Origin: Lutibacter sp.
GTDB lineage: Bacteria; Bacteroidota; Bacteroidia; Flavobacteriales; Flavobacteriaceae
DNA length: 64,000 nucleotides
NCBI GenBank assembly: GCA_030694935.1
Contig: JAUYUA010000045.1
Location: 62,001 to 126,000, forward strand
Reading direction: 5' to 3'
Shown: piece after piece, positions 19,699-62,008 of the stretch
Layout: each line of letters opens with the position of its first letter
Numbering within the stretch: the stretch's first letter is position 1
The notes under the pieces: model-generated
Databases searched by the model: none
What the model was told of the DNA's origin: nothing
The model's input: the letters and a program-made list of their open reading frames with translations, nothing else
Translations under genes and position numbers: made by a program

Positions 19699-20061
19699 TT
19701 GATGAAAAAACTACTTTTAATCACTTTTTTACTGTTTTTCTCATTTTCTTTTGCGCAACAATCCGAGAAAAACAATGTGGATTCGAGCAAAAATATACCG
19801 CAGGTAACCCTTCTGTCTGTTTCCGCTTACCCAAATCCGTTTATTTCGGACACCAATATCAATTTTAGATCTGTAAAAGCGCAAACCGTTGTGTTTTCGG
19901 TAAAAAATTTGTTGGGAACAACGGTTTATGAAGAGCGAATTGAAGCTTCATCAGGCAACAATACCATTGCTTTCAACCGAAATATTTTAACCAAAGGCAT
20001 GTACATTTATTCTTTGCAAACTGATGTTGAAATTGTCTCCAAAAGATTGATTATTAAATGA
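19699..20061 (+). CDS. Small secreted protein with T9SS type A sorting-domain-like sequence
   Basis: Signal peptide, then SAYPNPFISDTNINF...GMYIYSLQTDVEIVSKRLIIK, a type A CTD pattern. Confidence 0.75.
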   Translation: MMKKLLLITFLLFFSFSFAQQSEKNNVDSSKNIPQVTLLSVSAYPNPFISDTNINFRSVKAQTVVFSVKNLLGTTVYEERIEASSGNNTIAFNRNILTKGMYIYSLQTDVEIVSKRLIIK

Positions 20062-21290: not shown

Positions 21291-22136
21291 ATGGGTGAAA
21301 CAATAAAAATACACGAAACGGCATTTTTGACGGCAACATTCCGGTCAATTGATGAAAATCTAAGTGGGGATCCTTTTGCGAAATTATGGCAAAATGAAAA
21401 AACTGATTTATGGCTTAAAGAATACATCAATAACGTCTCAACAGAAGAGCCTTATTGCCATTGCTTAAGAAACCGTTATTTTTTGGACCAGATAAAAAAA
21501 TCCATAAAACAAAATAACATTGAAATTCTTATCAACTTTGGAAGCGGATTTAGCATGTATCCATTTCTTTTGGATGAAAATTTAATTCATATTGAAATTG
21601 ACAAACCGGAAATAGTTGAACACAAAAAACAAAAAATTGAGGATTGGCAAAATAAAAGCCTAATTCCTAAAAGAGATATTCATTTTTTGGGCGTTGATTT
21701 TAATGAAGAATACGAATCGGAGCTGGTTCCAAAAATAATGTCCGTTAAAAAAGACAAACGCTCATTTATTCTCATAGAAGGCGTTTTGTTTTTTTTGGGA
21801 AAAAAGGAAACGATAAGTTTGTTCAGCTTGTTTGATTCACTTCAAAATAAAGGCGATTTAATAGGCAGCGTTTCGTTTCAAAACAATGTGTCAGAAACAA
21901 TTTCTTTTAAAAAAATGCTCGCGTTTTTGGCCAAAAAATTAACAAAAGACCAAGAGTTGGATTATCAGTTAATAGATGATGAATTCTATCAAAACATAGA
22001 AAACTACAAATTGACAGATAAACAAGATTTTTTTAGCCTTTCAAAAAAATACAGGCATGCAACTTCATTAAGTAAAGGAGAAATTTTAAATGAAACCATG
22101 TATTTATTGGAAAAAATCGGTTCCAAAAAAATATAA
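21291..22136 (+). CDS. Class I SAM-dependent methyltransferase, LCMT/PPM-like O-methyltransferase family
   Basis: INFGSGFSMYPFLL, HIEIDKPEIVEHKK, FILIEGVLFFL. Confidence 0.8.
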   Translation: MGETIKIHETAFLTATFRSIDENLSGDPFAKLWQNEKTDLWLKEYINNVSTEEPYCHCLRNRYFLDQIKKSIKQNNIEILINFGSGFSMYPFLLDENLIHIEIDKPEIVEHKKQKIEDWQNKSLIPKRDIHFLGVDFNEEYESELVPKIMSVKKDKRSFILIEGVLFFLGKKETISLFSLFDSLQNKGDLIGSVSFQNNVSETISFKKMLAFLAKKLTKDQELDYQLIDDEFYQNIENYKLTDKQDFFSLSKKYRHATSLSKGEILNETMYLLEKIGSKKI

Positions 22137-22248: not shown

Positions 22249-22824
22249 TTAAATATCTGAAAGCGTGTAGGTGATAGTTAATGGAGCAGCTATGTCAACA
22301 AATCTTAAATCAGCATAGTCTGTTGCAGTACCAGCATAATCAAGTTGGTAAGTTAAATTACGTCCTTTGTTCACTCCGTCTCCTGTCCAAGTGCTTCCAA
22401 TTCCTGTAACAATATCTGATGCAGTATTTGTTAAAGTAATAGCAGCTACAGCAGTACCTTTTGTGCCCGCGCCATCTGCAGAAGCTGCAGAAGCAAGTAC
22501 TGTTAATTTTAATCCGTCTGGAACAGCACCGTTAGTGATTGCAACAGTCACTTTTCTTACCAATGCACCTTTAACAATAGAAGAATAGTTCATCCAAATG
22601 GTGGCGTTGGTTGCTGCAGCTCCAAAAGTCATTGGCGAACCAGCTTCCGTTGGTGCTGTACCAGCTAAAGTAATAGTTGTTGATGCAGCTTCAAGATCCA
22701 ATAAGGCAACTTCTGGAATGCTGATGGTTACTAAATGAGTGGCAACTTTTGAGTCTGCTTGTGCAAAAGCAGCGTTGGCAGATAAAACGATTACAGCGGC
22801 GAAAAATAATTTTGTTAGTTTCAT
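22249..22824 (-). CDS. Secreted subunit-like protein A (paralog family, 191 aa)
   Basis: Signal peptide; shared ISIPEVALLDLE, WMNYSS, IGSTWTGDGVNKGRNLTYQL, C-term LTITYTLSDI with the 23395 and 25593 ORFs. Confidence 0.85.
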   Translation of the reverse strand: MKLTKLFFAAVIVLSANAAFAQADSKVATHLVTISIPEVALLDLEAASTTITLAGTAPTEAGSPMTFGAAATNATIWMNYSSIVKGALVRKVTVAITNGAVPDGLKLTVLASAASADGAGTKGTAVAAITLTNTASDIVTGIGSTWTGDGVNKGRNLTYQLDYAGTATDYADLRFVDIAAPLTITYTLSDI

Positions 22825-22891
22825 GAGGTTTGTTTTTTAAATTGTTTGTTTTGTTATTTATTTTTTGTTTTGTTATTTCTTATTGATGGTA

Positions 22892-22899
22892 CAAATATA
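22892..22899 (-). promoter_or_regulatory. Putative -7 box (TATATTTG on minus strand) of subunit-like gene A
   Basis: CAAATATA on plus strand; no convincing -33 TTTG at N19. Confidence 0.45.
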
Positions 22900-23177
22900 G
22901 GTTGACATTAAAACTCTTACTGCGAAAAATAGGCAGGTAAACGTTAAGTGTCGGTGAACGGTAGGATTCTTAAGATGAATACATTTAACGGCAGATGGAA
23001 AGGATGAAATGAGAGAAGATCGTGTAGGATATTAAAAGTTAGATATTAAATATTAGAAGTTTTATTCGCGGTTAAGCATAGCCATCGACTCAGGGTAATA
23101 CGGTGGTTGAAAGATTTGAATTGTTTGTTGGGTAATTGTAGAAAAACAAGAAGATTAAAGGCCAAAGTGATTTTTAT

Positions 23178-23267
23178 GTGAAACAATTCAACGTATCAAC
23201 AAATCAAAGTATCAACGCATCAACGTCTCAACATATCAACATATCAACGTATAAACGTATCAACAAT
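23178..23267. repeat. Imperfect tandem '(g/c)tatcaacg' intergenic repeat
   Basis: Run of approximately 9-10 bp units: tatcaac/atcaacg/catcaacgtctcaacatatcaacatatcaacgtataaacgtatcaac. Confidence 0.7.
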
Positions 23268-23394
23268 TTGTCACCCTGAGCGTGGCTGCTGAGCGGAGCC
23301 GAAGCAAAGTCGAAGGGAACAAAAAAGAAAAACACCATCCTAAAAATTGTATTTAGGAATAGTGTCTTTTTCTATTTGGGAATGTAAAAATATT

Positions 23395-23964
23395 TTAATT
23401 GTCGGATAGTGTGTAGTTGATCACCAAGGTATTGCTATGGTTGGAATCCAAATTGGCATAAGCGTTTGGTTCATCGCTTAGTTTTAAACTATATTGCACA
23501 TTGTTGCCTTTATTGGCACCTGCACCGGTATAAGCGCTTCCGATATTGGTGATAATGGTAAGCGGATTTGAAGTAAGCTCTTGCGTGGTGCTGATTGGTT
23601 CTCCCATTTCTCCGGCACCGGCGCCCATATCTTTCGCTACTTTAACGTAAAGTTTTACGCCGGCAGGAATGCTGCCTTCAGAAATACGAATGCTGATATC
23701 GCGCCCTGGTTGTGATTGAGAACCTATAATGGAAGAATAATTGATCCAAACGCTGTTGTTGGTGTCTTCCATATTGATGGCTTGACCGGCTTCAATAACA
23801 GAAGTGTTTCCCAAGCTGATGTTATCGTTTGAATATACATTGATTAAGGCAACTTCAGGTATTGATAAATTTATTTTGTGGCTGCCTTGATTGACTTGAG
23901 CGCATAAATTGCCAAACACTAATAAAAATAAGAACAGGGCTATATTTTTGTAGGTTGTGGTCAT
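23395..23964 (-). CDS. Secreted subunit-like protein B (189 aa paralog)
   Basis: Signal peptide; LSIPEVALINVY, EAG, WINYSS, IGSAYTGAGANKGNNVQYSL, C-term LVINYTLSDN. Confidence 0.85.
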   Translation of the reverse strand: MTTTYKNIALFLFLLVFGNLCAQVNQGSHKINLSIPEVALINVYSNDNISLGNTSVIEAGQAINMEDTNNSVWINYSSIIGSQSQPGRDISIRISEGSIPAGVKLYVKVAKDMGAGAGEMGEPISTTQELTSNPLTIITNIGSAYTGAGANKGNNVQYSLKLSDEPNAYANLDSNHSNTLVINYTLSDN

Positions 23965-24096
23965 TTTTTTTGCTTAATAGGTAATGCGTTTATAGGTTTT
24001 TATTTTTGTGTAACTAAAAAGTTAATTGCACTATTTAGATTTATTCTAAAGGTACAAACAAAAAACCATTAAGCAATGAAAAAAACGAACTATTTT

Positions 24097-24147
24097 ACCA
24101 TTTGTTGTAAAATATATACCATTTGTTGTTTTTTACGTACCATTTAT
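24097..24147. promoter_or_regulatory. Three direct repeats (ACCATTTGT, ACCATTTGT, ACCATTTAT) with exact 21-bp period: candidate LytTR binding sites
   Basis: Copies at 24097, 24118 and 24139; each fits 8/9 positions of the LytTR consensus [TA][AC][CA]GTTN[AG][TG]; 133 bp upstream of gene B start. Confidence 0.6.
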
Positions 24148-24428
24148 ATTTTATCACAACGTTTTTTCAGTGGATGAAAATAATTAAAAGCTCGTAAAAT
24201 GGCTTTTATTTACTTAAAGTTAAGAATTTTATTTTGAAAAATTTGCGACAGGTTAAAAAAATAGCACGTCTTCAAAACTTTTTATTTTGATAAAGAAATG
24301 GGAAGAAAGAATTTTAAAAAGTTATAATTATGGTCTTCCAGAAACTTTGGAACAAAGCGAAAGAAGCATTTTCTAAAAAAAAACGCGATTTAAATGATAA
24401 AATTCAATGTTTGGATAAATTTGCTGTC

Positions 24429-25067
24429 TTATTGCAGATGCGCCAAAGCAATTTCTAAGTCAACCAACAGAAGTTTCATATTTTTGATTTGTTTTTCGGC
24501 ATCATTTAAAATATGGACGTCTATTTCTTTGGATAAAAGCGCCGACTGGGGCAAATCAAGCATTGCAAATTTGCTGCTCAATTGGTGCGCCCTGCTTTTT
24601 AACTCCGATAAATTGTTGGTTTCAATCAGCGCTGGGATTTCCTCCAAATTGCGTTTGAATTCCTCAACCATTAATGCTTTTATTTGTTCAAAAAATTCTT
24701 CATCATCCATCGCGTAGTCTTCAATGGAAGCATAAGAAATGGGCGTGCTTTGCACCAAAAAATCAAACAATGCTGCATAACTTAAAGGCGATTTTGTGTT
24801 TGCATAAGAAGATTCCGATAAATCCAACCCGGTATCGTTTAAAATTAACATAGGCAACTGAATTAAGTGCGTAAAAGCCAAAATAGACTCATTTTTAACT
24901 ATAGATTGAGCCACCAAATGCGAATAAGATTCAGAACTTAAAGCAGTTTCCAGCGCATTAAAATCGTTTATGATATCAAATTGAATGCCTGTGTTTTCAC
25001 TTAGGCACAATTTTAAGGCTTCTTGTTTTATAGCATTTTCTTCAATAAATAATATTTTTACGGGCAT
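24429..25067 (-). CDS. Pseudo-receiver + Hpt domain protein
   Basis: N-term KILFIEENAIKQEAL resembles REC but lacks the phospho-Asp at the expected strand (YSHLVAQSIV); C-term Hpt-like RAHQLSSKFAMLDLPQ. Confidence 0.6.
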   Translation of the reverse strand: MPVKILFIEENAIKQEALKLCLSENTGIQFDIINDFNALETALSSESYSHLVAQSIVKNESILAFTHLIQLPMLILNDTGLDLSESSYANTKSPLSYAALFDFLVQSTPISYASIEDYAMDDEEFFEQIKALMVEEFKRNLEEIPALIETNNLSELKSRAHQLSSKFAMLDLPQSALLSKEIDVHILNDAEKQIKNMKLLLVDLEIALAHLQ

Positions 25068-25125
25068 TATTTTAGATTTTAATTATTTTATTTTAAAGTG
25101 TGGAAACTTTTGCCAAATAATATTA

Positions 25126-25593
25126 TTAGTGCATCACTGTGTACATAATTTCGGTTGAATAACTTTGTACCGGCAACACAACACTAATACCGGTAATTTC
25201 ATATTGTAATGGAATAAATGTATGATAACCTACACAAGTAAAAAAGTTAGCGTTAAGATTTGTAATTGTCTGATAAATTAAGCCTCCAGTTATTGCGGTA
25301 TTCCCATTTGTGCCGTTTGCTGTGCGTTTAACTTTGAGATTCAAATTATTGTGCCAAGCAATGTCGCTTCTCTTAACATAAACAATTATCTGTTTGTTGT
25401 TATTCACAGGGTTTATTGTTAATAAAGTTTGATTGGCGTTACTTTCATAAGTGGTTGGATAATCATTCCCAGCTTCACTTATATCGGATGCGGCAATAGT
25501 TTTCATCCAATTGCCAGTAACAGTAATAGTAATATTTTGACTAAAAAGCGTATTTGAAATAGCCAAAAAAGCGATAAATATTAAGTTTCTCAT
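25126..25593 (-). CDS. Short secreted protein D, possible divergent subunit
   Basis: Signal peptide; ISEAG; C-terminal strand STEIMYTVMH resembles ITYTLSD of the paralogs; 1-bp overlap with the upstream subunit gene. Confidence 0.65.
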   Translation of the reverse strand: MRNLIFIAFLAISNTLFSQNITITVTGNWMKTIAASDISEAGNDYPTTYESNANQTLLTINPVNNNKQIIVYVKRSDIAWHNNLNLKVKRTANGTNGNTAITGGLIYQTITNLNANFFTCVGYHTFIPLQYEITGISVVLPVQSYSTEIMYTVMH

Positions 25594-26129
25594 TATAAAT
25601 CGGTTAAGGTTAAACTAATGGACAATGCTGCAGATTGGTTAAAATCCAATAATTTGTAATCGAAAATTTCCAAATAATAGGTAAGCTCATAGCCGTTACC
25701 AATGCCATCACCAGTATATGCGCCTCTAATGTTCGAGATAATTGTTTGTGACGCGCTGCTTAAAGTCAAAACTTGGACAGGCGTTCCACGCAATCCTTGA
25801 CCAATACCCATAACATTTGAAGTGCTCATTTTTAAATAAATGCCGGAAGGCACTTGACCACCATCAATTTTAACAGAAATGCTTCTTGCAGCCGCCGTGC
25901 TTAAAACAGCAGATGAAAAATTAAGCCATTTTTTATTGTTTGCAGTCACCATTGCCGCCTTTTCGCCGGCTTCATTGGTCGCTAAACTTAGTGTTAACGT
26001 TGAATTATCCGGTTCCAAATCCAACATGGCCACTTGAGACAGGTTAAATGTAGCGTTTGCAGAGCCTTGACTTTGGCCGAAACTCGAAATTGCGCACAAA
26101 CCGCAAATAATGTAAATTAGTTTTTTCAT
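25593..26129 (-). CDS. Secreted subunit-like protein C (178 aa paralog)
   Basis: FNLSQVAMLDLE, NEAGE, WLNFSS, IRGAYTGDGIGNGYELTYYL, C-term LSISLTLTDL; ATGA-type overlap with the usher-like gene. Confidence 0.85.
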   Translation of the reverse strand: MKKLIYIICGLCAISSFGQSQGSANATFNLSQVAMLDLEPDNSTLTLSLATNEAGEKAAMVTANNKKWLNFSSAVLSTAAARSISVKIDGGQVPSGIYLKMSTSNVMGIGQGLRGTPVQVLTLSSASQTIISNIRGAYTGDGIGNGYELTYYLEIFDYKLLDFNQSAALSISLTLTDL

Positions 26130-28852
26130 AATTTAAATATTTTATCGCTTTTTTTAACCTCCCTGTTTTTATTGGTCGCTTTAAAAACAGCCTTCTCTTC
26201 TTTATCGGATTCGATGGAAATGGTTTTTTGCGTTTCGCTAAAAGTGAAATCGTTCAATAATTTTTTTACAACCAGCTCCACGGTCCAATCTCCCGGCGTA
26301 AGCTCTTTGAACCAAAACTTGCCGTCTTTGTCGGTTTTGGTATAAGAGGTTTTGTCTTCCTTGGTTATTTTCACCACCAAAATAGGCAATTTTTTGATGA
26401 ATTGCGAAGATTGCATCAACGTTGTTTCTTCAAAAATAACTTGCCCAAATAAAGAGCCTGTATTTCCCATTTCAAGTACCACTTCGGTTTCTTTATTGGG
26501 GACAATATCGATGTCGATTGGCTGTTGCATCACAATAATTTTATTTTTTGGCAAACTCGATTGTTTCACGTACAAACGATAGGTTTTGGGCTGTAAATTG
26601 TAAAAGTGAAAAACGCCTTTTTCATTGGTGATGGCAATTTGCTCATCCAACAACACAAGAATGCCTTCTAAATTAACTTTTTCATCGGAAGTAATTTTAC
26701 CAATTAAAGAGCCAACAGTTTTATTTTTTGAAACCGGCACGTTCATCACCAAACTATATGATGCCGAAATTAAAAGTTCTTTTTGGATGGGAAATACCGG
26801 CAAACTCATTTGTGAAACAGAAACGCTTAACAAATGTTTCCTTTGATAGTTGTAATTTAACTGCGCCTGCAAATAATTTTGGGACTCATCCAACTCATCA
26901 AAATCGTAATTCTTTTTGTAAAATACATTCAAGTTTAAATCCGATTTTAAATTGTATTGTAAATTGCCGCCATAATAAAACGTTTTTTGCACTACATTAT
27001 CAACAGATTGTTTGTTGCTTTGCTGGTAATCGCCATTTAAGCCCAGAATTAAATTTTTAAAAATATATCCGGTGACACTCAAAGAACTGAAAAAAGTGTT
27101 TTGCGGCTCCGTGCTGTTCGCTAAAAAATTGATGGTTTTTCCCACCCGGTTTTGCCACATTAAATCGTATTTAAAAGGCATTCGGCTATAAAATGACAGC
27201 GTCGCCAGCTTTTCCTCAAAATTGTAGGTCTGTAAACTCAACTGGTCTTCTTTATTCCGGTAATAACCTCCTACCCTAACTTTATTATTTCTGTTGATGT
27301 TGTAATTAAAATACGCCTGATATTTGGTGGTGATAGGCGAAGAAGTGTAATTAATGGTGTCTTTAACCGGATTAATAGCGCGATATTCTGCACCAATTTG
27401 CATATCAATTTTATCGTTAAATCGGTAATTTGCAAGCGACAACCATTGCTTGCTGTTTCTTAAATAACCTTTATAGTCTTTATCGGAATATTGGGCAGAA
27501 TTGATAAAATCCCATTTTTTCAAATTTAAATAGGCTTCCAAAGAATAAGCAAGTCCGTTTGTTTTATAATTGGTTTCGTAAGCCACTTCTCCATTGAGTT
27601 TAAATCGGTCAATGGTGTAAAAAGAAGCGATGTTAAAAATTTTGGAATTGAATTCTTCGTAATTTTCAAAAAGGGTTCTGTTGATAAATCCAGCTTCAAT
27701 GTATGCTTTATCTGATAATTCCTGAGAAATTTTACCGCCGTACGAGTCGGATATTTGTTTGGTGAACCTTGGTTTTACATAAAACAACGTTGTGGTGGTT
27801 TTTCCAAAATCATAGCTTAAAATTCCGCCCGTTCCGTAGCGCGATGTTTCCGTAATATTGGATAGCGAAAAATTTACGTGACCTGCAACAGTCTCCAATT
27901 TTTTGTTTTTGTAAAAAACACTGTATCGTTCATAATCACCAAATCGTACAATATCGCTTTGGCTCGGACCTGAATATTCAAAATTTAAATAATGTTCATT
28001 GGCTCTGTCCAAATAACCCTGACCGCTCACCTTAAATTTAAATACATTTAAGGTATCCAATCCTTTTAACGAATTAAAAATGGTGGATATGGTAACCGGA
28101 AACCGATGGTACAAATCGGGTTTTTTGGTGTTGTTTGGATAAAGCGTTACGGCTACACGATTTGAAAACAGCAAATCATTTGAAACCATATAGGCTTTTA
28201 GGTTATTTAAAACCATTGTTTTGGTGCGTACATTTTCCGGCACTTTTTGATAAACAGCAACAACCATTGATGAATCGGGTTTCAATAAAGCATTTAAAGG
28301 CACTATTTTAATCATATTGCTCGATTCAAAAGTTATTTTCTCTTCACTGTTCCCGTTATTTGTCACTAAATACTCAACGTAATATTCCTTTTCAAGGCGC
28401 AAATATTCCGGGGCGTTTAAAACCTCCACCGTTAAATTGTATAATTTAGAAACCTTTAACGTTATTTCCTGAGAAGCAATAGGCAAATTGTTAGTTTGAT
28501 TGGTAATTTTCAGCAATGCTTTATAGTCGCCGGCAGCGCAATGGTTGTTAACTCCAAAAGTAAACAGCACAATTTTTTTATCATTTGCGGCAACATCCAC
28601 CTTTTTAATGTTAGTTGTTAAATAAAACGCATCGGAAACCACAAATTCACTGCCTAAATTGAGCTGGTTTCCCGTTGTATTTGAAATTTCAAAAGCAATG
28701 GTATAATTTTTTCCGGGATCTAAATTTTCAGGAATATTTTTTGCAATAATTTCAACGGCACTGGTTTGCGCTTCCACTTTTGATATTGACAGAAACATCA
28801 ATAAAAAAAGAAAAAGATTGGTAAATGTTGCTATTTCGGATAATTTTCTCAA
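26126..28852 (-). CDS. Usher-like outer-membrane protein: N-terminal Ig-like domains, beta-barrel region, two C-terminal carboxypeptidase-regulatory-like domains (908 aa)
   Basis: Signal peptide; NIPENLDPGKNYTIAFEISNTTGNQ Ig/NEW3-like; many alternating aromatic strands in 300-680; VGSLIGKITSDEKVNLEGILVLLDEQIAITNEKGVFHFYNLQPKTYRLYV. Confidence 0.65.
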   Translation of the reverse strand: MRKLSEIATFTNLFLFLLMFLSISKVEAQTSAVEIIAKNIPENLDPGKNYTIAFEISNTTGNQLNLGSEFVVSDAFYLTTNIKKVDVAANDKKIVLFTFGVNNHCAAGDYKALLKITNQTNNLPIASQEITLKVSKLYNLTVEVLNAPEYLRLEKEYYVEYLVTNNGNSEEKITFESSNMIKIVPLNALLKPDSSMVVAVYQKVPENVRTKTMVLNNLKAYMVSNDLLFSNRVAVTLYPNNTKKPDLYHRFPVTISTIFNSLKGLDTLNVFKFKVSGQGYLDRANEHYLNFEYSGPSQSDIVRFGDYERYSVFYKNKKLETVAGHVNFSLSNITETSRYGTGGILSYDFGKTTTTLFYVKPRFTKQISDSYGGKISQELSDKAYIEAGFINRTLFENYEEFNSKIFNIASFYTIDRFKLNGEVAYETNYKTNGLAYSLEAYLNLKKWDFINSAQYSDKDYKGYLRNSKQWLSLANYRFNDKIDMQIGAEYRAINPVKDTINYTSSPITTKYQAYFNYNINRNNKVRVGGYYRNKEDQLSLQTYNFEEKLATLSFYSRMPFKYDLMWQNRVGKTINFLANSTEPQNTFFSSLSVTGYIFKNLILGLNGDYQQSNKQSVDNVVQKTFYYGGNLQYNLKSDLNLNVFYKKNYDFDELDESQNYLQAQLNYNYQRKHLLSVSVSQMSLPVFPIQKELLISASYSLVMNVPVSKNKTVGSLIGKITSDEKVNLEGILVLLDEQIAITNEKGVFHFYNLQPKTYRLYVKQSSLPKNKIIVMQQPIDIDIVPNKETEVVLEMGNTGSLFGQVIFEETTLMQSSQFIKKLPILVVKITKEDKTSYTKTDKDGKFWFKELTPGDWTVELVVKKLLNDFTFSETQKTISIESDKEEKAVFKATNKNREVKKSDKIFKL

Positions 28853-28903
28853 ATTAAAACTGAAAATAAAACAGTATTTTTTTAGGGTTATTTTATTTTC
28901 ACT

Positions 28904-29686
28904 TTATTTATTTTCAAATTCTAAATCGATAGAATAAATATTTTTTCCATAATCGGCAACCAAAACCGAAGTGTAAGCTCCTTTTGGCAAGCCTGAAATA
29001 TCCAATGAAAATGCTTTACAAGAATTTGGATACACTTTTTTAAATTTCACTTCCACCTTTTTTTCCAAAAAGCCATTGGCATTAAACACTTCAAGAATTA
29101 AAGTTGGCTCAACATAAAAGGTGCCTAAATTTTTTAAATCAACATTTATAAATTTATTTCCGTCCGGTTCTTCAATTTTGATGTCGTAAAATTCAAGTTC
29201 AGAAGGCGTTCTTTCATTAATATCGGCAATAATTTGAATTCCGTATCTTACTTTCGATTCCAATTTTACGCCAAACTCCAACTCATCTTCTTTAATGGGT
29301 TTTTCAATTTCAACCATTAAAACGCCCCAAAAGGAGCCATCTACCTCAACATCATTGGGAACATTAATGGTGTAAATAAGTTCATATTCTTCATTTGCCT
29401 TAAAAACGTGCTCATTTACATTGGTTGTCAACCAATTTTTGATGGAATTTTTATGCGATAAATCGGCCGTTAAAACCGTTTCTTTGCCACATTCCTGAAA
29501 CAAATCATTGAAATAAATAATAACGCGTTGTTCGGTTGCATCGGTGTTTTTCATCTTAATAATTCCGGTGACCAATTGTCCGGATGCCGATTGGTGCACG
29601 TGGGTTAAGCCATTAAGTATCACCACACCTGCATTGGAGAACTGAAAACTTAAAACTAATAAAAGAAACAGTAGGGATTTTTTCAT
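28904..29686 (-). CDS. Periplasmic Ig-like, chaperone-like protein (260 aa)
   Basis: Signal peptide; GLTHVHQSASGQLVTGIIKMKNTDATEQRVIIYFNDL; YELIYTINVPNDVEVDGSFWGVLMVE, resembling fimbrial-chaperone/DUF916-type Ig domains; first gene of the usher-like operon. Confidence 0.6.
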   Translation of the reverse strand: MKKSLLFLLLVLSFQFSNAGVVILNGLTHVHQSASGQLVTGIIKMKNTDATEQRVIIYFNDLFQECGKETVLTADLSHKNSIKNWLTTNVNEHVFKANEEYELIYTINVPNDVEVDGSFWGVLMVEIEKPIKEDELEFGVKLESKVRYGIQIIADINERTPSELEFYDIKIEEPDGNKFINVDLKNLGTFYVEPTLILEVFNANGFLEKKVEVKFKKVYPNSCKAFSLDISGLPKGAYTSVLVADYGKNIYSIDLEFENK

Positions 29687-29737: not shown

Positions 29738-30478
29738 TTACAGCAAATTAAGCTGTTTCATCAATTCAGGTTTGCTCGACCTGCTTACCGGAACAACATT
29801 TTTTCCAATTAACACGCTGCTGTCTTCAATATCAACAATTTTTTTAATGTTGATGATAAATGACCGGTGGACTTTCAAAAAAATCGTTTCGGGCAATTTG
29901 TCCTCTATTTTTTTTAGCGTTGAATGCACCGTGTAGTTTTCCTTGTCGGTTTTTATCAAAATATAATCGCCTTTTGCTTCAATTAAATGAATGCTGTCAA
30001 AACTAATTTTTACCAGACGTTTATAAATATTTACATACAAATCGCTTTTTGAATTTTCGTTGACTGGCGCTGCGGGCAATTCTACATTCTCTTTTGTGGC
30101 GTTTGAAAACAATTTAGCCTTATCAACGGCTTTGTCAAATCGTGCTTGAGTCATTGGTTTTTCCAGATAATCTACCACGCAGTTGTATTCAAAAGCCTCC
30201 AAAGCAAAATTTGTATGAGAACTGATTAGGATAACTTTAGGCGGATTTTTTAAAGTTTGCAACAAATCAAAACCTGAAAAAGCCGGCATATGAATGTCTA
30301 AAAAAATAAGATCAACATTGTTTTGATTTAAATATTTTAGCGCTTCAATTGGGCTGTTGAAACTGGCAACAAGATTTAAGTTTTTATTATTCGAAATTAG
30401 CTTTTCAATAATTACTCTTGCAATTTCTTCATCATCAATAATGATACAGTTCATTGAGTTGTTTTTTAATGATTTCAA
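29738..30478 (-). CDS. LytTR-family response regulator (REC + LytTR)
   Basis: CIIIDDEEIARVIIEKL, LIFLDIHMPAFSG; C-term LIEAKGDYILIKTDKENYTVHSTLKKIEDKLPETIFLKVHRSFIINIKKI. Confidence 0.95.
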   Translation of the reverse strand: MKSLKNNSMNCIIIDDEEIARVIIEKLISNNKNLNLVASFNSPIEALKYLNQNNVDLIFLDIHMPAFSGFDLLQTLKNPPKVILISSHTNFALEAFEYNCVVDYLEKPMTQARFDKAVDKAKLFSNATKENVELPAAPVNENSKSDLYVNIYKRLVKISFDSIHLIEAKGDYILIKTDKENYTVHSTLKKIEDKLPETIFLKVHRSFIINIKKIVDIEDSSVLIGKNVVPVSRSSKPELMKQLNLL

Positions 30479-30608: not shown

Positions 30609-31322
30609 TTAGGCTTCATTCGCCTTATTTTTTGGTAACGTAAAATAAAATGTGGTTCCTTTTAAAACTTCACTTTCCAGCCAAATTTCTCCGCCATAAA
30701 GGCTTAAAACCCTTTTTACAATGGAAAGACCCATTCCGGTAGATTTTTCGTGATAGCCAAGTGTGGTAAAGGTGTTAAATATTTTTTCGTGGTATTCCTT
30801 CGGAATTCCCTGGCCATTGTCTTTTATTGAAAAAGTATAAAAACCTTCAGTTTCTTCAACGCCAATTTCAACCAAACCAGCTTCTTTATCATTAAAGTTA
30901 ACAGCATTGCTAATTAAATTCTGAAAAACTTGTCGCAATCTTCTTGGATCGGCTTTTAAAACAGGCAATTTGCCATTAATGACAATGTTAATGTTTTTAG
31001 GAATATCAAGGCTTTTTATAATCTTATTCACCTTTATATTGAGATCTATCGTGTTTGTTTTTAGGCTTGTTCCGCCAATTTCGGAGTAATTGATGATGTC
31101 TTCCAGAAATTTATCCATCTTTTCTATTTTCTCCTCCATAAGGTTCAAATTGCAAATACTTTCTTCTCCAATTTTTTCGATGCAATCTTCTTTTACCCAG
31201 CTTAACAAAGCCGAAAGATTTCTTAAAGATGATTTTAAGTCGTGCGAAACCAAATGGGCGTAGTCATTTAACTGCTCATTTTGATTTTTTAATTTTAAAA
31301 GTAATTGCTCTTTCTGACGCAT
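30609..31322 (-). CDS. Cytosolic sensor histidine kinase (HisKA + HATPase, no obvious sensor domain)
   Basis: LVSHDLKSSLRNL H-box, NLISNAVNFND N-box, DNGQGIP, GMGLSIVKR. Confidence 0.9.
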   Translation of the reverse strand: MRQKEQLLLKLKNQNEQLNDYAHLVSHDLKSSLRNLSALLSWVKEDCIEKIGEESICNLNLMEEKIEKMDKFLEDIINYSEIGGTSLKTNTIDLNIKVNKIIKSLDIPKNINIVINGKLPVLKADPRRLRQVFQNLISNAVNFNDKEAGLVEIGVEETEGFYTFSIKDNGQGIPKEYHEKIFNTFTTLGYHEKSTGMGLSIVKRVLSLYGGEIWLESEVLKGTTFYFTLPKNKANEA

Positions 31323-31333
31323 AATGCTAAGAC

Positions 31334-31747
31334 TTAAGCTTGCACAAATTCATTATAACACCAGTAATCCAAAACCGTTTTAATTGATTCAGAATAATCG
31401 GCGAATTTTAAAGGTTTTACCAAATAACCGGCAATGCCAAGTTGGTGACATTCAGAAACATCTTTATGGTCATTGGATGACGTTAAAATAACGGTTGGAA
31501 TATATTTTAGTTGATTATTTTTTCTGATGATGCTTAAAAATTCAAGGCCATTTATTTTTGGCATATTTAAGTCGAGCAAAATAAGATCGGGCAATGACTC
31601 GTATTTATATAAAATATTCAAAGCTTCTTCCCCGTTTTTAGCTTCAACAATTTTGTGAGGATAGGCCAATTTTGAAATTGTTCTGTTAAATTTCATAATT
31701 TCTATCATATCATCTTCAACCAGTAAAATGTTCAGACTTTTTCTCAT
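31334..31747 (-). CDS. Single-domain response regulator (CheY/Rcp1-like)
   Basis: ILLVEDDMIEIMKF, DLILLDLNMPKINGLEFL, GYLVKPL. Confidence 0.93.
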   Translation of the reverse strand: MRKSLNILLVEDDMIEIMKFNRTISKLAYPHKIVEAKNGEEALNILYKYESLPDLILLDLNMPKINGLEFLSIIRKNNQLKYIPTVILTSSNDHKDVSECHQLGIAGYLVKPLKFADYSESIKTVLDYWCYNEFVQA

Positions 31748-61835: not shown

Positions 61836-62008
61836 AAAACTTTGTGAATTTGTTTACATTTAATTAACTATCCTTTAACAAGTTAAACACGTTAAAGCCT
61901 TAAATTTGCAATGTTAATATTACAATTAAAGAAGGCATGCAAATGCTGTAAAAATATAAAAGAATATTTATAATTATTTGAATTAGTTAATTGATAGTCT
62001 TTTTGATA

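Follow-up and report, generated by a model that had tools for sequence, protein, structure and literature searches.

A Lutibacter gene cassette with a WxLIP-type chaperone, a putative outer-membrane barrel and small secreted subunits: a candidate donor-strand surface-fibre system

Introduction

What is built by a tight run of genes for small secreted proteins, one immunoglobulin (Ig)-type secreted protein and one large putative outer-membrane protein, and does its assembly follow the logic of chaperone-usher pili? The question is raised by a minus-strand cassette of Lutibacter sp. (GenBank assembly GCA_030694935.1, contig JAUYUA010000045.1), analyzed here within a stretch of 64,000 nucleotides (positions 62,001 to 126,000 of the contig), hereafter the window, by whose positions all features are located. 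An original prediction, made from the letters of the window, had proposed a chaperone/usher-like fibre system with a non-canonical usher, and the seven open reading frames (ORFs) it described are present. They encode a 260 amino acid (aa) secreted two-domain protein (28904..29686), a 908 aa protein (26126..28852), a 178 aa subunit (25593..26129), a 155 aa secreted protein (25126..25593), a 212 aa Hpt protein (24429..25067) and two stand-alone subunit paralogues of 189 aa (23395..23964) and 191 aa (22249..22824), all on the minus strand. Overlaps were also as described: the 908 aa gene shares 4 bp (26126-26129) with the 178 aa gene, which in turn shares 1 bp (25593) with the 155 aa gene. Gaps of 51 and 58 bp separate the 260 from the 908 aa gene and the 155 aa gene from the Hpt gene, respectively.

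The cassette probably assembles a surface fibre through donor strands, by a mechanism akin to that of chaperone-usher pili. We favor this reading because of the homology of the 260 aa protein to WxLIP, the strand donation predicted for WxLIP itself, the adjacency of chaperone and barrel genes, the phylum-wide subunit families, the leader lengths of the subunits, an AlphaFold2 (AF2) subunit model, and the lack of any match over the cut-off to a canonical usher in 198 Bacteroidota genomes. The usher-like interpretation holds as to its operon logic, its Ig-like chaperone and the co-occurrence of its components; the chaperone proved to be related to WxLIP, and the barrel lacks recognizable usher homology. 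No earlier description of the system was found in the open-access literature (preprints and most subscription papers lay outside the search), and the three open-access papers naming both WxL and usher were, by their titles and abstracts, general surface-protein reviews or secretomics studies.

The 260 aa Protein and WxLIP

Profile comparison makes the 260 aa protein homologous to WxLIP: its family (14 Bacteroidota sequences) aligned with eight Bacillota WxLIP sequences over 226 columns, covering both domains of WxLIP, PGBD and HBD (hhalign, 96.9%, 1.7e-10). Three divergent alignment rows were excluded from this run; a first match in the PDB, EfmWxLIP1 (3e-10), had depended on them and vanished without them, so it was dropped and the claim rests on the comparison lacking those rows. 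As an Ig control, the N-terminal domains of the barrel protein were compared with WxLIP and reached 73% (3e-5, 75 columns); therefore, the chaperone match stands well above generic Ig likeness and the weaker matches do not. The protein taken singly matched Pfam WxLIP_HBD under the cut-off (E 0.0098). The Ig-like nature originally ascribed to it is thus supported via WxLIP (DUF916/DUF3324), one of the relations suggested at the outset. The PapD relation, suggested likewise, was not recovered: against four E. coli PapD-type chaperones the family gave 0.9%, with no detectable relation (hhalign), and the PapD-type domains PF00345 and PF02753 had no Pfam match in the protein or its family. By eye, the segment SFWGVLMVEIE…FGVKLESKVRYGIQ occupies the position of the PapD-type F1–G1 hairpin, which is a resemblance only. 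The genome carries one such chaperone gene.

In Bacillota, WxLIP has been described as binding and stabilizing WxL on peptidoglycan, and published AlphaFold2 predictions let a strand of the WxLIP hairpin complete the gapped beta-sandwich of WxL (PMC10599100). The cassette shares with the WxL/WxLIP clusters of Bacillota the homologous two-domain chaperone and its location beside genes for small secreted partners; unlike them, it has no WxL domains, no C-terminal membrane helix on the chaperone, and an added outer-membrane protein. This invites another explanation, a diderm WxL platform in which the WxLIP-like protein would hold small surface proteins non-polymerically, the barrel being an anchor and not an export channel. 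Homology to WxLIP, with its described role in binding and stabilizing WxL, speaks for it. However, the WxL domain PF13731 was not found in the genome, and the 260 aa protein has no hydrophobic helix at its C-terminus, the last residues being EFENK, whereas the Bacillota WxLIP proteins compared do carry a C-terminal membrane helix. The subunits had also been considered as WxL domains themselves, the motif TYTLSD resembling the second WxL motif, and profile comparison did not support this (hhalign 1%). As such a platform would moreover leave several long-leader subunits plus one short-leader subunit unexplained, we consider it unlikely.

Subunits, Leader Length and a Tip Candidate

The 178, 189 and 191 aa subunits are true paralogues, as had been claimed, each retrieving orthologues of the other two at approximately 1e-15 to 1e-40. 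Of the motifs said to be common to all three, only the 189 and 191 aa proteins carry SIPEVAL and TYTLSD unaltered; at these sites the 178 aa protein has LSQVAML and SLTLTD. They are the only credible subunits in the genome, all inside this cassette. Nothing credible was found in Pfam for the subunits or the 155 aa protein, including any C-terminal domain of the type IX secretion system (T9SS) on the subunits, and the subunits lack a Cys pair, both in line with the initial description. The 178 aa gene is the conserved gene after the barrel, and the 191 aa protein is closest to the conserved subunit whose gene precedes that of the chaperone in several distant relatives; it is the counterpart of that upstream subunit and not an extra. 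An 8 bp tandem array of ~9.6 copies (TCAACGTA, window 23188-23264) lies between the genes of the two stand-alone paralogues.

The main new pattern in these proteins is the length of their leader, measured from the conserved mature-start Gln, where cleavage is assumed, up to the EAG motif's conserved Gly. It spans 23 residues in the 155 aa protein vs. 36-40 in the three subunits of the window and, among homologues, 18–30 residues (16 homologues of the 155 aa protein) vs. 32–54 (33 subunits), with no overlap. Other Bacteroidota families likewise have a long form (32–48) and a short form (17–21), and the distant short form is homologous to the long one (98.7%, 2e-16), the alignment beginning at column 36 of the long-form profile. 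The AF2 model of the 191 aa subunit (predicted local distance difference test, pLDDT, 76.9; predicted template modelling score, pTM, 0.70) is a beta-sandwich from residue 40, with residues 23–38 unstructured (22711..22758, minus strand); the segment lacking in the 155 aa protein corresponds to this unstructured N-terminus, which is thus a candidate donor strand. The absence of such a segment is as expected for the tip of a donor-strand fibre, and in chaperone-usher pili the tip subunit is the one without an N-terminal extension. We propose the 155 aa protein as the tip subunit. The pilin-type arrangement of extended subunits plus one unextended tip candidate is hence present as a pattern; the subunits show no profile similarity to E. 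coli K-12 pilins.

The same leader pattern bears on a simpler explanation, namely that the barrel exports single subunits which stay monomeric on the surface as a coat or as adhesins. The subunits are indeed secreted, small and repeated, the fibre is so far a predicted one, and the linked signalling genes could switch coat proteins. Neither the pattern of leaders nor a dedicated chaperone of a strand-lending type would be expected in that case, which makes it very unlikely. With regard to type V pili of Bacteroidia, their subunits are lipoproteins matured by proteases; in contrast, the window subunits have no lipobox, no mature-start Cys and no Pfam match to the FimA/Mfa families. The likeness is that these pili (FimA/Mfa1) are Bacteroidota fibres also proposed to use donor strands (PMC5789003).

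The Putative Outer-Membrane Barrel

The 908 aa ORF, which has a TTG start from which its homologues also align, was taken as the proposed usher-like export pore from its adjacency to the chaperone gene, and can be divided into three parts. Ig-like domains are predicted at the N-terminus (residues ~30-239, 28136..28765), with confident AF2 structure for 30-135 and a profile that resembles the Ig-type part of WxLIP. At the C-terminus, two CarboxypepD_reg-type, transthyretin-like domains (residues 713-895, 26168..26716) are indicated by Pfam (E 1.3e-9) and by confident AF2 strands. The intervening region (residues 240-712, 26717..28135) is 469–482 aa long in 14 homologues, is 16.6% aromatic (flanks ~9%), contains no Cys and shows ~20 amphipathic peaks in residues 248–706 by a crude scan that gives peaks in beta-sandwiches too. 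In the chaperone-usher pathway the outer-membrane barrel has 24 strands. For this region the signs of a barrel are indirect: its composition, its constant length and the weak matches that individual relatives make to DUF5777 and Toluene_X, both outer-membrane families, suggest an outer-membrane beta-barrel, which we call putative since AF2 was confident only at ~30–135 and ~712–895. With ~475 aa, the region has little room for a plug, and no plug-like insert was seen.

Those weak matches to outer-membrane families are also what could be said for the 908 aa protein being a transport porin or receptor placed by chance beside unrelated secreted proteins. The linkage of the barrel to chaperone and subunits is, however, kept across distant Bacteroidota, so that we regard this as highly improbable.

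Occurrence Across Bacteroidota

The chaperone profile matched 36 of 395 Bacteroidota genomes, in 23 genera, and in 17 of the 22 with a strong hit (E < 1e-30) a barrel gene lies directly downstream. The subunit families are likewise connected phylum-wide (profile match 97.5%, 7e-12), so that the co-occurrence of chaperone, barrel and subunits expected by the original prediction is borne out by the neighborhood survey. In distant Flavobacteriales (L040, L042–L049) the core, with some losses, starts with a subunit gene ahead of that for the chaperone and continues with chaperone and barrel, then a subunit of the 178 type and a small secreted protein of the 155 type or similar. A barrel tally (198 genomes) was discarded, being inflated by the common CarboxypepD_reg region, and a scan of viral contigs found no match. 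Among individual loci, two barrels with a long extra N-terminal stretch after a lipobox-like Cys, and one chaperone whose two domains are set apart by a long insert rich in Ser, Asp and Glu, were observed (L044:5155-8253, L047:10153-13605, L049:333-1502). A third arrangement (L050, L051, L052, L159) has an extra gene of 290-343 aa beside the chaperone and a barrel of 930-1000 aa; profile comparison makes this barrel homologous to that of the window, at 93.3% for the barrel part and 97.6% for the N-terminal domain.

A second branch (L149, L151-L157, L160) carries a chaperone homologous to that of the window (98.7%, 2e-16) and differs from the window in having four small DUF4402-like subunits encoded ahead of the chaperone, one of which passes the DUF4402 cut-off, and a barrel of 950-1240 aa with a plug-like insert, sub-threshold Usher similarity and, in most, C-terminal SPOR domains. 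The clear link to the window barrel is via the C-terminal domain only (96.2%, vs. 19% for the barrel part). These features hint at a remote descent of the second branch from chaperone-usher systems, and through the shared chaperone they open the possibility that the window cassette, too, is a true, highly diverged chaperone-usher system from FimC/FimD-type ancestors, a question of descent which is compatible with fibre function. PapD_N weakly matches five of eight second-branch chaperones. However, the window barrel and chaperone show no such similarity, and the PapD match of the second-branch chaperone (67%) is no better than the Ig-domain control (73%) and was not used as evidence of descent; common ancestry with FimC/FimD thus appears doubtful to us. 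That a separate Bacteroidota-wide pathway, with a WxLIP-type chaperone and a plug-less, Ig-headed barrel, arose independently of FimD/PapC ushers is possible, and is advanced here tentatively.

Gene Order and Linked Genes

Directly upstream of the 260 aa gene, and also on the minus strand, stand a LytTR response regulator (29738..30478, Pfam), a histidine kinase (30609..31322, Pfam HATPase_c 4.9e-29, with a gene of the same size at that place in relatives) and a single-domain receiver-like protein (31334..31747, with orthologues at the same place in relatives). The named relatives of the barrel gene are mostly Lutibacter metagenome-assembled genomes, and the named Lutibacter-like relatives keep the order receiver–kinase–LytTR–260–908–178–155–Hpt–189–191, contig ends excepted, which argues that the cassette is more than a chance assembly. 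The Hpt domain of the 212 aa protein was found under the Pfam cut-off (E 2.9e-4); its position is kept in relatives, and a regulatory phosphotransfer role is proposed for it. In L039 and L041, a LytTR gene separates hpt from a subunit gene and so links the signalling genes to the cassette.

Besides, a leucine carboxyl methyltransferase-type gene (window 21291-22136) adjoins the cassette, and most relatives are without it there. Further away, at window 19699-20061, a 120 aa protein with a TTG start consists, by eye, almost wholly of a signal peptide followed by a C-terminal sorting domain of the T9SS type.

Discussion

Broadly, assembly of the proposed fibre may be pictured as follows. In the periplasm, the 260 aa WxLIP-type protein would lend a beta-strand to subunits whose beta-sandwich is incomplete and so cap them; the 908 aa protein would take in the chaperone-subunit complexes, probably via its N-terminal Ig-like domains, and the subunits would pass through its barrel, the C-terminal domains replacing those of the usher. 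Since it has no N-terminal extension, the 155 aa subunit would enter first and form the tip, after which each of the 178, 189 and 191 aa subunits would insert its own extension into the preceding subunit. The linked kinase, LytTR and Hpt genes would control the cassette.

Several results weigh against such a fibre. The AF2 pLDDT is ~20 across residues 240-712, from a shallow alignment of 11 close homologues, and the 908 aa protein shows no usher similarity (hhalign 0.5% for the full protein and 0.2% for the barrel region alone), so that the suggested PapC/FimD relation was not recovered; neither was Usher (PF00577) matched by Pfam in 14 barrel homologues. The subunit model had no significant PDB match in Foldseek, where TasA and CsuE were far under significance and were not used. 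In the branch of the window, the link between the 155 aa family and the subunits is only a weak one after trimming of the signal peptide (21.6%, P 0.001); the untrimmed match (93.5%) was mostly signal peptide and was discounted, and the matching of the EAG motif between both families is therefore partly an assumption. In addition, the distant short forms were chosen by inspecting operons. Finally, the five strong-hit genomes without an adjoining barrel all belong to one genus (L134, L137, L142, L143, L144), which thus has a WxLIP-like chaperone-type gene in the absence of a barrel; in the two examined (L137 and L142), it adjoins PIG-L and solute-binding protein genes.

With the chaperone-usher pili (FimA/FimC/FimD/FimH, and the archaic Csu), the cassette shares several subunits, a secreted Ig-type chaperone, a large outer-membrane protein and a last subunit, as well as one subunit without an N-terminal extension, like tip subunits. 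It differs from them in that chaperone, barrel and subunits have no profile similarity to the E. coli K-12 members, in the N-terminal Ig and C-terminal CarboxypepD_reg domains beside a barrel region of ~475 aa devoid of any visible plug, and in subunits without paired Cys. Judged by sequence, the cassette falls outside both the chaperone-usher families and the complete WxL cluster; in its apparent working it resembles the former, and with the latter it has its chaperone in common.

A candidate set of chaperone, barrel and subunits thus recurs across the phylum and yet gets missed, because it scores under the cut-off of the usher and chaperone models in Pfam. The WxLIP proteins, so far described as anchors, also gain a testable role as strand-donating chaperones. 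If the separate pathway is real, strand-lending Ig-type chaperones would be common to monoderm WxL platforms and diderm fibres.

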